DNA of 64,000 nt from Actinomycetota bacterium. Its GTDB lineage: Bacteria; Actinomycetota; Acidimicrobiia; Acidimicrobiales; Ilumatobacteraceae. The stretch's first letter is position 1; every line of letters starts with the position of its first letter. Location of the stretch: positions 62,001 to 126,000 of the forward strand of contig WLIV01000004.1 in assembly GCA_009702045.1 (NCBI GenBank), written 5' to 3'. Both the position numbers and the translations under genes were made by a program. Shown piece by piece: positions 35 through 4,520 of the stretch. The notes below the pieces were generated by a model that saw only the letters and a list, made by a program, of their open reading frames with translations, was not told the DNA's origin and searched no databases.

Positions 35-412
35 TCATGCCAAGCCGGCCTGCCGTTGGAAGACGAGGCTGTCCCAATAGTCCGTACGCCGGGCGATCAG
101 GTCGCCGCGCACGAGAAAGCGCATCACTCCGCGAACAGCCACATCGTGGCCGTTCACGTGAGTGTGCAGCGTGTACGCGGCAGCGACCCGGTCGCCATCG
201 GCAATCACGTCCTCGACCTCATACCGAAGCCCGGGCATCGAGGCGAGGAAGTTCGGCACGCGGCTCGCGTACTCGGTCTTTCCCTCGCACCCGGAACCCA
301 GCGCGGCGGTGTGCTCATTGACGAAGTCGTCGGTGACATGTGCCGTCACCAGTTCGGGATTGCCGCTCGCGAAGGAGTCGAGGTACGAGCGGCAGATGTC
401 GGCGGCGCTCAG
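35..412 (-). CDS. SnoaL-like / NTF2-fold protein
   Basis: About 125 residues with the SnoaL/ketosteroid-isomerase-like pattern: an N-terminal helix (ADICRSYLDSFASGNPE), a segment reading VTAHVTDDFVNEH, and a C-terminal sheet ending RTDYWDSLVFQRQ. Members are small cone-shaped enzymes or binding proteins; the substrate cannot be read from sequence. The frame stays open upstream to 523, but that part lies inside the preceding VOC gene and looks like out-of-frame translation. The only sensible start is CTG at 412, whose last bases overlap the VOC stop (CTGA). That would be translational coupling from a rare start codon. It is the third gene of a VOC-VOC-SnoaL operon. The fold is likely; the start is uncertain. 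Confidence 0.7.
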   Translation of the reverse strand: MSAADICRSYLDSFASGNPELVTAHVTDDFVNEHTAALGSGCEGKTEYASRVPNFLASMPGLRYEVEDVIADGDRVAAAYTLHTHVNGHDVAVRGVMRFLVRGDLIARRTDYWDSLVFQRQAGLA

Positions 413-876
413 CCCCAGACCTCTTGGGCCTTCTCGTAGACGCCCTGGTCGAACGAGAACTCGATCATGTTGCCGTCGGGGTCGGTGCAGGCGCAGATGT
501 AGCCGATGGGATCGGGCATCCACTGCGGCTCCCAGACCAGGCAGCCTTGCGCTCTGCCGAGTTCGGCGACGGCATCGACCTCTTCCTTCGTCGGCATCTC
601 GATGCCGATGTGGGCGAAAGGAGCCATGATCGGGATGGGGCCCTTGTTCTGGTCGCGGAAGAAGCTGACGAGTACCAGGATGAACGGCTTGTCGCCGTTG
701 TCGGGGTGCCCGAGCCAGGCGCCGTACCCGTCGGCGTCTTCGCGGCGGTCCAGCAGACGCAGCGGGGTGAACGCTTCGTACCAGGCGATGGTCTTGTCGA
801 TATCCGACGCCGGCAAGGCGATGTGTGTCCAGCGCACCGACGTGGGGCGCACGCGCTCGGATCGTGCGTCACTCAT
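409..876 (-). CDS. VOC-family (glyoxalase/dioxygenase-fold) protein
   Basis: 155 residues. Paired beta-alpha-beta-beta-beta modules are visible. The first opens RWTHIALPASDIDKTIAWYE, with a candidate metal-ligand His at the end of strand one. The second holds FAHIGIEMP and ends DPDGNMIEFSFDQG, whose Glu is the usual last metal ligand. This is the layout of glyoxalase I and type I extradiol dioxygenases. The longer open frame upstream is discarded because ATG 876 overlaps the previous VOC stop by 8 nt. Function is unassigned; the tandem with another VOC gene suggests processing of one small-molecule substrate. Confidence 0.85.
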   Translation of the reverse strand: MSDARSERVRPTSVRWTHIALPASDIDKTIAWYEAFTPLRLLDRREDADGYGAWLGHPDNGDKPFILVLVSFFRDQNKGPIPIMAPFAHIGIEMPTKEEVDAVAELGRAQGCLVWEPQWMPDPIGYICACTDPDGNMIEFSFDQGVYEKAQEVWG

Positions 877-1357
877 GGGTGTAACCGTCCTTGATCTCCG
901 GGTTGTCTCCACCCTTGCTCCACATGATGATGCTGTTGCCCCACGGGTCTTCGAACGCACCGCTGAAGCCGTTGAACTCTTTCCAGTAGTGGTGCCGCCA
1001 CAAGATCTTGGCCCCGTGTCGCTCGGCCCGGTCGAGGATGTCGTCCTCGTTGTCGTGGTCGCCGACCAGCACCCAGAGCCGCATTGCGCGACCGCCCGTC
1101 GACATGTGTCGGGGCTCAACTCCTGCCGGGTCTGGATGCGGACGCATGTTGCCGACATCGCTGAAGCCGAGGTGCAGGTTGCCGACCTCGGAGTCGGTGC
1201 CATCGTCGAGTGGGAAGAAGCCGCCGGGTACTCCGCGGTGGAAGACGCCGGTGGGGCGGCCTTCGACCATCCACCCCATGACCTCTTGGTAGAAGTGGGC
1301 GCACGCCACCACGTCATCAGACGGGAGGTCGACGAAGATCAAAGTGTTCTGACTCAT
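869..1357 (-). CDS. VOC-family protein, first gene of operon
   Basis: 162 residues with a VOC fold: MSQNTLIFVDLPSDDVVACAHFYQEVMGW at the N terminus and AFEDPWGNSIIMWSKGG near the C terminus. The expected metal-ligand positions are poorly kept (Phe/Val in place of the first His, Ile in place of the last Glu), so it may not bind metal in the usual way. A minus-strand TAAGGT lies 6 nt before ATG 1357, which suggests a leaderless mRNA. The FadR-like palindrome at 1384-1396 lies where the -35 element would be. It overlaps the downstream VOC gene by 8 nt. Confidence 0.85.
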   Translation of the reverse strand: MSQNTLIFVDLPSDDVVACAHFYQEVMGWMVEGRPTGVFHRGVPGGFFPLDDGTDSEVGNLHLGFSDVGNMRPHPDPAGVEPRHMSTGGRAMRLWVLVGDHDNEDDILDRAERHGAKILWRHHYWKEFNGFSGAFEDPWGNSIIMWSKGGDNPEIKDGYTHE

Positions 1358-1363
1358 GTTGCA

Positions 1364-1369
1364 ACCTTA
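1364..1369 (-). promoter_or_regulatory. -10 element (TAAGGT) of the VOC operon
   Basis: The hexamer TAAGGT on the minus strand sits 6 nt before ATG 1357. This would put the transcription start at or next to the start codon. Confidence 0.5.
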
Positions 1370-1383
1370 GCAAGCTTGGACTG

Positions 1384-1396
1384 ATGGTCTGACCAT
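1384..1396. promoter_or_regulatory. FadR-like palindromic operator
   Basis: ATGGTC-T-GACCAT is a perfect 13-bp inverted repeat. Its core TGGTCNGACCA equals the central consensus known for FadR-type GntR operators. It overlaps the expected -35 region of the VOC operon. A second palindrome, CCATTCG-AG-CGAATGG (1393-1408), overlaps its right arm. No GntR gene is in the window, so the regulator is unidentified. Confidence 0.5.
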
Positions 1397-1446
1397 TCGA
1401 GCGAATGGGTTACAGTTCCGGTATGCGATCGCTGTGTACTGCGAAC

Positions 1447-2793
1447 TCAGCCTCGCGCGCGCAGCAGGTGGTCGCGCCGCTCGAGCGCCTCTGCGCGCAG
1501 ACTGTTCACATCGACGGTGATGCACTCACGGTCACGAAGCACGTGCCGGCCGGCCACGACGACGTCTCGTACCGACCTTCCGTCGGACGCCCACACCAAC
1601 TGGCGCACCGCGTCGGTGCTGCGTGGCAGGAACTGAGGCCCGCTCGTGTCGTGCACCACCAGGTCGGCTTGTTTGCCGATCTCCAGCGAGCCGATGAGGT
1701 TGCCTTTGCCGATGGCTTCTGCTCCGCCTCTGGTCGCGAGGGCAAGGGCGTCGTGAGCCGTCATCGAGAACGCATCCATGCTCATATCGCGGGCAAGGCC
1801 GACGAACAGCGAGGCGGCGCGCAGAATGTCGACGGCATCTCCGGCGTTCTCGGCGTCACAGCCGAGTGCCAGGCGTGCGCCGCGGTGGAACAACGTCGGA
1901 TGGCAGCCGGCAGTGAAACCCTGTGCCAGCCGCAGGTAGGCCCATGGGCAACTGGCGACGGCGGTCTTTGTCTCCAGCACGCACTCGACTTCCTGCTCGT
2001 CGAGGTGCACGGCGTGCGCCAGCAGCACATGTGGACCGAGCGCTCCCAGTTCGTGGAAGTGCACGACTGGCCGTCGGCCCGTTCGCTCCAGGTACAGCCC
2101 GGCATCGCCTCGGTGCGGCGAGATGTGGAATGTGAGGCCGGTCTGTCGGCTTCGTGCCAACTCGCTGGCTCCCACCAGCAGGTCGTCGCTCATCAGATCG
2201 TGTCCCACGAGGGTCACCCAGGCCTCGACCAAGCCTCCTGTGGGGTGACGGTCGAGCATCTCCGCCTGCAGTGCGAGCACCTCATCGGTGGGAGCGCCGA
2301 AGGGAACGCCCTCGACATCCCATCCCCAGCGGCCGACGGTGCCGCGGATACCTGCGTGCAGCATGCCCATGGCGACGCGGTCGGGGTTGGCCACCGTGCC
2401 GGCCTCGATGGTGCACGTGATGCCGTTGGTGAGGGCCTCCACCGCTGCCAGCGTTGCCGACAACTCATCGTCGTCCGGGGTGTGCGCGCTGTGCACCGGT
2501 ACGGCCCAACCGAAGATCGCTTCCTGCGAATCGATCGCATCGGGGATGCACGAGTGGACCAACCGGTCTCCGGTCATGTGTTGATGCGCGTTGATGTAGC
2601 CGGGGGTCACGATGGCGTCGTCGTTGCCGATCACGGTTGCGTCGGGGTGCAGCGCCCGCAGATCAGCCCAGGTGCCGACTGCGGTGATCAGCGAACCTTC
2701 GATGCGCACTGCGCCGTTCGACACCACGGTGTCGTGCGAATCCATCGTCACCACGTCGCTTCCGCGAACCAGAATCACTCCAACGTCGTCCAT
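1447..2793 (-). CDS. Amidohydrolase-family protein (TRZ/ATZ, cytosine-deaminase-like)
   Basis: 448 residues, usual for metal-dependent deaminases/chlorohydrolases. A small beta-sandwich precedes a TIM barrel. Near residue 70, GYINAHQHM carries the HxH metal pair. HISPH, LLAHAVHL and LGCDAENAGDAVD supply the later His and Asp ligands. The C-terminal GSLEIGKQADLVV returns to the sandwich, as in SsnA/AtzB-like enzymes. The product would come from hydrolytic deamination or C-N cleavage of a heterocycle; the substrate is unknown. Its start lies only 17 bp from the divergent Rieske oxygenase start, which suggests joint control. Confidence 0.88.
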   Translation of the reverse strand: MDDVGVILVRGSDVVTMDSHDTVVSNGAVRIEGSLITAVGTWADLRALHPDATVIGNDDAIVTPGYINAHQHMTGDRLVHSCIPDAIDSQEAIFGWAVPVHSAHTPDDDELSATLAAVEALTNGITCTIEAGTVANPDRVAMGMLHAGIRGTVGRWGWDVEGVPFGAPTDEVLALQAEMLDRHPTGGLVEAWVTLVGHDLMSDDLLVGASELARSRQTGLTFHISPHRGDAGLYLERTGRRPVVHFHELGALGPHVLLAHAVHLDEQEVECVLETKTAVASCPWAYLRLAQGFTAGCHPTLFHRGARLALGCDAENAGDAVDILRAASLFVGLARDMSMDAFSMTAHDALALATRGGAEAIGKGNLIGSLEIGKQADLVVHDTSGPQFLPRSTDAVRQLVWASDGRSVRDVVVAGRHVLRDRECITVDVNSLRAEALERRDHLLRARG

Positions 2794-2810: not shown

Positions 2811-3839
2811 ATGACCAACTCCACCACGCTCCCCACCTCGCCAGTCACTGCAGTGCTGTGCGGAAACCCTGCATTTCGTGATGCGTGGTATCCGGTCGCC
2901 CGCTCGATCGAACTCAGCGTCGACCGCCCTCACGCGGCCATGCTGCTCGGCACGAAGATCGTGCTCTACCGCGTCGACGGCACGGCCATTGCCGCTCCGG
3001 ACCGTTGCCCGCACCGCGAGGCGCCGCTCTCGAAAGGGTCCATCGAGGACGGCTGTCTGGTGTGCCCGTACCACGGGTGGAAGTTCGGGAGCGGTGGACG
3101 CTGTGTGAACGTGCCGTCGTCGGGCGACCACGTGCCGCCGCCGCCGCGTGCGCACCTCTCCACGCTGCTCTGCGAGGAGCGGTACGGCTTGGTGTGGGTG
3201 TCGCTCGGTACTCCGCGCCAGGGGATTCCGGTGATCCCGCACGATGCTGATCCTTCGTTCCGGCGCATCACCAATCCGACTGAGCTGTGGCATACGTCGG
3301 CGACCCGCATGGTCGACAACTTTCTCGATATCACTCACTTCCCGTTCGTGCACACCGGCACGTTCGGCAAGGGGCAGGACACGAGAGCGCCGAGCGTCGA
3401 GCTGCAGTCGCTGGACAACGACTGGTTCGGTTACGCCTACGACGTGAAGGCCAACAACGACACCGCCGGTGGATCGTTGGCAACTGGCGAGACAGCAGCT
3501 GTCGTGGAACGCTCGATGACCTCCGGCTTTCAGCTGCCGCTGGCGTGCCGCAGCACGATCCGCTACCAGAGCGGGCTCGAGCACATTCTGTTGTTGATGT
3601 CCACTCCAATCGACGATGTGACGTCCTACTTCTCGTTCGTGATCTGGCGGAACGACGACTTCTCGGTCTCGGCCGAGGAGATCGTGCGCTTCGACCACGC
3701 GATCGGTGCTGAGGACAAGAGAATGCTGGAACAGTTCGACGGTGTCTTGCCGCTCGACCAGACCACGTTGGTGAGCGTGCAAGCTGACAAGTGCAATGTG
3801 GAATGGCGTCGTCGCCTTGTTGAGGCGATGCGCGGCTGA
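2811..3839 (+). CDS. Rieske non-heme iron oxygenase, alpha subunit
   Basis: 342 residues, the length of single-subunit vanillate-demethylase/PaO-type oxygenases. The Rieske [2Fe-2S] ligands are Cys66, His68, Cys85 and His88. The mononuclear iron motif follows as N170...D173-x2-H176-x4-H181, where Asp173 would bridge electrons between subunits. Such enzymes O- or N-demethylate or hydroxylate ring compounds and need a separate reductase, which is not in this window. ATG 2811 has AAAGG about 9 nt upstream. It is divergent from the amidohydrolase and followed by a TetR gene. Confidence 0.92.
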   Translation: MTNSTTLPTSPVTAVLCGNPAFRDAWYPVARSIELSVDRPHAAMLLGTKIVLYRVDGTAIAAPDRCPHREAPLSKGSIEDGCLVCPYHGWKFGSGGRCVNVPSSGDHVPPPPRAHLSTLLCEERYGLVWVSLGTPRQGIPVIPHDADPSFRRITNPTELWHTSATRMVDNFLDITHFPFVHTGTFGKGQDTRAPSVELQSLDNDWFGYAYDVKANNDTAGGSLATGETAAVVERSMTSGFQLPLACRSTIRYQSGLEHILLLMSTPIDDVTSYFSFVIWRNDDFSVSAEEIVRFDHAIGAEDKRMLEQFDGVLPLDQTTLVSVQADKCNVEWRRRLVEAMRG

Positions 3840-3871
3840 CGAGTACTCGCCGTGGCTCGCCGCGACCGGGC

Positions 3872-3877
3872 TACCGT
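3872..3877 (+). promoter_or_regulatory. -10 element (TACCGT) of the TetR gene
   Basis: TACCGT lies 7 nt before ATG 3885, consistent with a leaderless transcript. It favours 3885 over the upstream GTG at 3852. Confidence 0.45.
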
Positions 3878-3884
3878 TGGCGCG

Positions 3885-4520
3885 ATGTCAGTGGCGGCGC
3901 ACAGCGGAATCCCCTCCCCGGTCACGGGCGAGGAGCGCGCGCGCTCGGAACGCGACCTGTTGCTGCGTGCAGCGTTCCGCCTGGTCGGGCGCGCCCACGA
4001 CGGACCAGTGTCGGTACAGCAGATACTCGACACCGCCGAGTTGTCGACGAGAGCGTTCTACCGACACTTTCGAAGCAAGGACGAGCTGATCATCACCATG
4101 TGTCGGTCGGCAGCAGATCGCATGGTGGTGGAGATGACGGCGGTCATCGAACGGTCTCCGTCCACTGCCGCAGCGTTGCGGGCGCTCATCCGCGACCAGC
4201 TTGCCGTGGTCTACGACCCGAAGCGGGCCCGGCAGACCTCGGTGCTTGCGTCGCCCGAAGCTCGCGCTGCGGCCGGCTTCGACCAGGCCAAGGAGGACGC
4301 GGCAGCGGTTCGCCGACAGCTCGTGGCCGGAGTGATCGCTCGCGGTCATGAGGAGGGAGTGTTCCCGTACGCGGAGAACGCAGTGGAAGCGGCGCGCGCC
4401 GTCAACGGTGTGGTCATGGCGGTCATTGAGGCCCGCATCGCCGGCCACGACGTGCCCACCTGGGAGGACGCGACCGAGCACACGGCCGATCTCTTCCTTC
4501 GGGCGTTTGGCGCGAGCTGA
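3885..4520 (+). CDS. TetR-family transcriptional regulator
   Basis: 211 residues. The N-terminal helix-turn-helix is typical: ARSERDLLLRAAFRLVG, then VSVQQILDTAELSTRAFYRHFRSKDEL. A helical ligand-binding domain follows, with conserved LASPEARAAAGF and a C-terminal GHDVPTWEDATEHTADLFLRAF. Family members usually repress nearby or own genes and release DNA on ligand binding. A perfect 15-bp palindrome lies just downstream, before the thiolase operon, and is the likely target. ATG 3885 is chosen over GTG 3852 because a TACCGT element sits 7 nt before it. Confidence 0.9.
   Translation: MSVAAHSGIPSPVTGEERARSERDLLLRAAFRLVGRAHDGPVSVQQILDTAELSTRAFYRHFRSKDELIITMCRSAADRMVVEMTAVIERSPSTAAALRALIRDQLAVVYDPKRARQTSVLASPEARAAAGFDQAKEDAAAVRRQLVAGVIARGHEEGVFPYAENAVEAARAVNGVVMAVIEARIAGHDVPTWEDATEHTADLFLRAFGAS

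Follow-up and report, generated by a model that had tools for sequence, protein, structure and literature searches.

What does the inverted repeat in front of a small operon of glyoxalase/VOC-family genes do, and which protein, if any, reads it? In the window (the whole stretch of DNA analysed, 64,000 nucleotides), the repeat precedes VOC2, the first gene of a predicted regulated operon (Table 1). A first-pass annotation had described the palindrome ATGGTC-T-GACCAT, overlapped in its right half by a second one, CCATTCG-AG-CGAATGG; both are present exactly, the latter with 7/7 pairs. The palindrome is real, and it is part of a longer element, TGGTCAGACCATCAGTCCA, which lies partly beyond the stretch then described. 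Judging from the sequence comparisons set out below, this element is very likely the operator of P0001, a GntR regulator of the FadR subfamily with an FCD domain, which would control both its own operon and the VOC2 operon of the window by repression that is released by a small molecule of the pathway.

Table 1. Features around the VOC2 promoter, in positions of the window.
Feature	Position	Strand	Remark
SnoaL-like protein, third gene	35..421	-	Pfam SnoaL_2; start uncertain
VOC3, second VOC-family protein	409..876	-	Pfam Glyoxalase on 409-894; start 876 read from the sequence
VOC2, glyoxalase/VOC-family, first gene of the predicted regulated operon	869..1357	-	Pfam Glyoxalase_6 and Glyoxalase
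-10 element TAAGGT	1364..1369	-	TGC directly before it (TTGCTAAGGT); 6 nt before the VOC2 ATG; leaderless-looking promoter
Operator TGGTCAGACCATCAGTCCA	1377..1395	-	FadR-type palindrome TGGTC-A-GACCA plus a third half-site, GTCCA, spaced 8 bp from GACCA
Core palindrome ATGGTCTGACCAT (ATGGTC-T-GACCAT)	1384..1396		core of operator TGGTCAGACCATCAGTCCA
Second palindrome CCATTCG-AG-CGAATGG	1393..1408		partly a poor fourth half-site (1399-1403)
Amidohydrolase, TRZ/ATZ/8-oxoguanine-deaminase type	1447..2793	-	upstream of VOC2, same direction

On the minus strand, along which the VOC operon is read, the region runs TGGTCAGACCA TCAGTCCA (1395 to 1377), AGCTTGC, TAAGGT (1369-1364), TGCAAC and the ATG at 1357, and the upstream amidohydrolase gene ends 38 bp before the second palindrome. 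Beyond the SnoaL-like gene follows an aldo/keto-reductase-like gene that crosses the window's left end, and the gene order at this end of the operon is the same at related operator sites (here and below, the labels aldo/keto reductase, transporter ATPase/permease, methyltransferase and urease were given by eye). Farther upstream, at 2811-4520, the window carries a gene for a VanA-type Rieske oxygenase with an adjoining TetR gene (3885-4520). In many relatives the VanA-type gene has its own operator or one in common with VOC2; in the window it lies 17 bp from the divergent amidohydrolase gene, with no site there among the window's best-scoring ones.

The bare core alone is not above chance. The 11-mer TGGTCNGACCA, which we take to be the 11-bp core of E. 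coli FadR sites, has 5 matches in the 3.65-Mb genome, the same number as its reversed control, and with at most one mismatch it is found once in the window against 2.7 places expected. Two of the five genomic places extend further, as TGGTC(T/A)GACCATCAGTCCA, and the pattern TGGTCNGACCATCAGTCCA, with 3 mismatches allowed, returns these 2 genome places alone, both exact, against 6 inexact places for the reversed control. The two exact copies of the 19-mer are 18 kb apart on one contig. The element therefore stands above chance because its extended form, TGGTCAGACCATCAGTCCA, recurs exactly once more and is kept across genera and families.

The second copy (C34:45408-45426) stands 41 nt upstream of a further VOC-family gene, VOC1, whose stop codon overlaps the start of a gntR gene. 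The gntR product, P0001 (234 aa, encoded at C34:45950-46654, some 17 kb away from the VOC operon of the window), has a GntR domain (62.1 bits) and an FCD domain (64.7 bits), both above cut-off. Its operon reads VOC1-gntR-cupin-hyuA-hyuB-Rieske oxygenase-RraA-like, and 3' of the RraA-like gene are genes for a BMP-type binding protein, transporter-like proteins and a dehydrogenase, a methyltransferase-like frame and an amidohydrolase gene. P0001 and nearly all its relatives keep the DNA-contact positions of FadR at Arg35, Arg45, Thr46, Arg49 and Gly66, while Thr44 is replaced by Ala and His65 by Arg (mappings made by eye), and the DNA contacts are therefore not identical to those of FadR. In the FCD part, the Asp/His pattern D142, H146, H199 and H221, presumably the metal site of such domains, is kept in 41-42 of the 42 rows of the family alignment, in which the query may have been counted twice; the pattern would fit a metal-assisted small acid as effector.

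The site and the regulator travel together through the family. We searched 221 family genomes with the pattern TGGTCNGACCATCAGWCCR (at most 1 mismatch) and for regulator homologues at E <= 1e-30, and found the motif in 40 genomes (0/221 for the reversed control) and a close P0001 homologue in 46; both are present in 39, the motif alone in 1, the regulator alone in 7 and neither in 174 (Fisher 5.5e-35, for genomes that are related and not independent). Within genera, the numbers of genomes with both and with neither are 5 and 10 in the organism's own genus, 6 and 4 in g12, 7 and 3 in g19, and 3 and 2 in g18; genus g21 has 4 with both, 1 with the motif only and 4 with neither. The match in the sole motif-only genome (G034) lies inside a predicted ORF, the ORFs and gene starts around related sites having come from a simple script and not from a gene finder. 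An upstream check covered six of the seven regulator-only genomes (all except G125): in five (G110, G122, G124, G126 and G127), TGGTCTGACAATCAGACCC lies upstream of VOC1, and in G095 TGGTCAGACCAACTGACCG stands between the regulator and a VOC3 homologue. In G154, any match to the core in the 250 nt before the regulator gene has 3 mismatches or more, and sites are found elsewhere in that genome.

A scan with up to 2 mismatches matched 20 of 61 genomes (reversed control 6/61); its matches at the level of the order (G040, G041, G049 and G054), where no regulator match is better than 5e-8, were taken as chance. In one genome, G024, two GntR paralogues, about 42% and 77% identical to P0001, are encoded about 2 kb from each other next to operators (L058:12222-15106), possibly a split of the regulon after duplication; given the second, 42% identical paralogue, regulator and site may not pair one to one everywhere.

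Conservation at orthologous operons, on which the first-pass annotation had let its reading depend, could be followed independently of the motif, with VOC2 orthologues chosen by protein similarity alone (the best 30 of 40 matches, of which 29 were scored over 150 nt upstream, one lying at a contig end). The motif withstands this check: the core precedes 27/29 of them with at most one mismatch (23/29 exactly), and the full pattern, at up to 2 mismatches, 22/29; shuffled upstream regions gave 21/2900 and 0/2900, respectively. The two upstream regions that lack the core (G233 and G080) belong to genomes outside the 46 with the regulator. Four cores with one mismatch (G110, G122, G125 and G127) read TTGTCAGACCA, which still fits the TKGT/ACMA boxes given in PMC4494728. 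In 5/27 core-bearing promoters (these four and G155) the full pattern has 3-4 mismatches, and the third half-site is therefore not kept there.

Beyond the family, loci were chosen by the regulator protein only and searched with the degenerate form TKGTCNGACMATCAGWCCR at up to 2 mismatches. In other families of the order the site is present at 21 of 22 regulator loci, from eight families, and of two loci from the wider class, one (L227) has an exact site and the other (L226, 43% identity) none. Together with two loci of the own family, 24/26 have the site, against 0/78 shuffles; the two with a regulator homologue and no site in a locus of about 3.7 kb are L226 and, in the same order, L219 (47%). 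Among named records, a site with at most 3 mismatches occurs at 13/13 loci whose homologue is at least 49% identical and at 0/5 with more distant homologues; 12 of the 13 are genomes already counted, and the new one, Sphaerimonospora mesophila, has TTGTCAGACCAACAGACCAACAGACCA just before VOC1.

Which genes the sites mark can be read from 118 sites with at most 1 mismatch in loci of the family, most of them chosen because they bear the motif. A homologue of a cluster gene follows within 400 bp downstream and in the same direction at 92 sites (VOC2 29, VOC1 26, Bmp 11, GntR 8, VanA-type Rieske 8, VOC3 5, cupin 3 and amidohydrolase 2), 8 have a cluster homologue in the other direction only, 18 have neither, and 0 lie inside a reference homologue. 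Genes beside some of the remaining sites encode formamidase/acetamidase (G031 and G009) or enolase-superfamily proteins. In the sister genome G009 a third site precedes the formamidase gene, between urease-like genes and VOC1. The G009 formamidase has a single match in the present genome, a fragment of 40 residues containing a stop, and 4 of the 19 positions of the site have changed within flanks that still align (L020:3172-3460; C34:45172-45460); the gene has been lost and its operator has since decayed. Urease-like and accessory genes, named by eye, lie directly upstream of the regulator operon (L020:1-3180; C34:42001-45180), and in the relatives L065, L068 and L071 an operator is found at the end of the ureD-like gene.

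Aligned with one another, 117 of the 118 sites (one near a contig end was left out) present three half-sites, TGGTC-1-GACCA-3-GWCCR, with a spacing of 8 bp between the second and the third; at the centre, where the search pattern allowed any base, A or T stands in 112/117. Among the sites found, conservation of the third half-site is close to that of the core, but the search pattern itself included this half-site. In 5/32 VOC2 promoters the far side bears a fourth half-site as well (at most one mismatch to TGGTC); the window has a poor CGCTC at this place. We tentatively suggest, with less than even confidence, that the operator consists of GACCA half-sites in a graded array with an 8-bp period (an inverted pair and one or two further direct ones), where two or more GntR dimers could bind side by side without a NanR-like N-terminal extension, and that the number and quality of half-sites might set promoter strength across the regulon of an N-heterocycle pathway in the Acidimicrobiales. 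An array of four half-sites, TGGACACATGGTCGGACCATGCGACCG, was seen in a genome without a close P0001 homologue (G006, L066:8957-8983, minus strand), possibly by chance because it lies inside a predicted ORF.

The position of the operator relative to the promoters bears on how it would act. A sigma-70 consensus scan of 1300-1500 found no promoter, and the -10 in Table 1 was accordingly assigned by comparison with related promoters, namely 32 of 35 VOC2 upstream regions, after removal of two that belong to 30-31% paralogues and of one whose core has 3 mismatches. TANNNT follows the operator in 31/32, at 4-7 nt (25) or 16-20 nt (6), the TGCTA form of the -10 is present in 20/32, and a start codon lies within a few bases of the -10 in 22/32, the last two counts made by eye and all three without a shuffled control. 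From the TANNNT spacing, the operator covers the -35/spacer region; in the window the -35 position for a 17-nt spacer is 1387-1392, within the first palindrome. An operator of the FadR-subfamily (GntR) type over the -35 of a leaderless-looking promoter with TAAGGT, as the first-pass annotation had it, is thus supported. At VOC1 the likely -10, TATGGT, lies 17 nt after TTGTGA and shares bases with the operator, and TATGGT overlaps the operator's first half-site in 26/32 VOC1 promoters (by eye).

With the two sites, their conservation, their match with regulator presence, the promoter positions and the DNA-contact residues computed, we infer binding and, over activation, repression relieved by an inducer from the substrate's pathway. 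P0001 would very likely regulate two units here, its own VOC1 operon, which is also trailed by the BMP-type ABC transporter, dehydrogenase and amidohydrolase genes, and the VOC2-VOC3-SnoaL-aldo/keto-reductase-like operon of the window. When inducer is lacking, a P0001 dimer would sit on TGGTC-N-GACCA, possibly aided by the third half-site GWCCR, and would block RNA polymerase, in the window by covering the -35/spacer immediately 5' of the -10 and in front of its own operon by covering the -10. Release would come from a small molecule of the pathway that the FCD pocket binds, probably an organic acid or an N-compound. We take repression as the likely mode because both operator positions would block RNA polymerase, and the varying distance to the -10, together with the -10 overlap at VOC1, fits it. 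That the same regulator activates the window operon and represses its own is a distinctly less probable alternative: the window operator does lie upstream of a -10 for which the consensus scan finds no standard promoter, and the two distance classes differ by about one helical turn, which could suit an activator, but distances of 4, 5, 6 and 7 nt to the -10 all occur, and a start at the ATG puts the core centre near -33, inside the -35 region, closer to the start than the usual site of a class II activator.

The other readings fare worse than repression by P0001. That the palindrome is a chance structure without function could draw on the bare core being no commoner than its reversed control, but conservation refutes it (the two exact 19-mer places, the co-occurrence with the regulator, the loci in other families and the VOC2 orthologue promoters), and we regard it as scarcely credible. 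Competition of two different regulators at the two overlapping palindromes, as first proposed, is very unlikely. The second palindrome is exact over 14 paired bases, and its pattern at 2 mismatches has 14 genome places against 4 for the reversed control, but it is conserved only as far as the nearest relative, a sister genome (6/7 pairs, against at most 4/7 in the other 30 of 32 promoters), so that it is probably coincidental. The window's TetR gene was rejected as a partner of the site, since none of the ORFs shown around related sites corresponds to it; in the nearest relative, the contig stops short of the place in question. Slightly less probable still is acyl-CoA-responsive, FadR-like control that would make the VOC operon respond to fatty-acid status: in its favour are a core that agrees with the FadR-subfamily consensus and a regulator, P0001, from that subfamily, but P0001 has FCD and stays far below both FadR model cut-offs (45.7 vs 189 and 41.3 vs 249.2 bits), and no FadR_C domain was found in the genome by a search whose control finds the E. 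coli protein. Nor does the core mark fatty-acid genes, the point for which the first-pass annotation had proposed a genome scan: two of its five places are in the regulon, and the other three lie inside ORFs that by eye are lipoamide dehydrogenase-like, ABC transporter-like and another enzyme. The extended motif marks genes of amide/N-heterocycle type, namely hydantoinase-operon, VOC, Rieske, BMP-transporter, amidohydrolase and formamidase genes. The fatty-acid link fails, and the FadR reading is largely refuted.

The regulated genes probably serve the degradation of some nitrogen compound, not of fatty acids. It may resemble a hydantoin, a lactam or a purine, a guess made because hydantoinase, deaminase-type amidohydrolases and, beside urease-like genes, the relatives' formamidase genes accompany the site. 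The highest-scoring solved relatives are N-methylhydantoinase for HyuA, carnitine monooxygenase for the Rieske protein, and several amidohydrolases and deaminases for the amidohydrolase; VOC1 has weak matches only, and the BMP-type binding protein has no solved relative at E 0.001. From such a mixture no single substrate follows. Literature term searches returned no paper on a GntR regulon in Ilumatobacter or the Acidimicrobiia, nor on this target set (VOC, hydantoinase operon and BMP transporter), and we very likely have before us a new regulon of a known regulator type. It supplies a clean pairing of regulator with operator, and with it the definition of a regulon, in a group of actinobacteria for which metagenome assemblies are the main source, and because the operator is so specific, the genes of the pathway can be listed genome by genome, which should help to find the substrate.

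Among known systems, the closest are the operators of the FadR subfamily (DgoR, ExuR, FadR, GlcC, LldR and PdhR), for which PMC4494728 gives a consensus of TKGT/ACMA boxes with GT and AC 3 nt apart. TGGTC-N-GACCA fits this consensus, as do TGGTCAGACCA in the window and, through K and M, the relatives' TTGTC/GACAA variants; P0001 combines the GntR HTH with the FCD-type helical domain, keeps several of the specificity residues, and matches the motif in its presence. Unlike those operators, the present one has a sequence-specific tail, TCAGWCCR, on one side. PMC4494728 also describes additional, weaker half-sites at a distance of 7-12 nt from GntR-family sites, with an unexplained role. Here, likewise, one side has a third half-site 9-13 nt away from the core centre, and the other in some cases a fourth, although, compared with those weaker half-sites, the third is conserved about like the core among the sites found and is missing from 5/27 VOC2 promoters; it makes the extra half-sites reported there directly testable. 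In E. coli NanR, three dimers bind the three GGTATA repeats of a (GGTATA)3 operator (PMC8012715), so that the three-half-site arrangement has precedents both in NanR and in those extra half-sites. NanR is also the highest-scoring NCBIfam model for P0001, and repeated half-sites are shared, as in Sphaerimonospora (GACCAACAGACCAACAGACCA). However, the half-sites here are GACCA and include an inverted pair, with no tandem direct GGTATA repeats, and P0001 scores 97.1 bits against a cut-off of 260. From E. coli FadR, finally, the system differs in having no FadR_C domain, in scores far below the model cut-offs and in its target genes.
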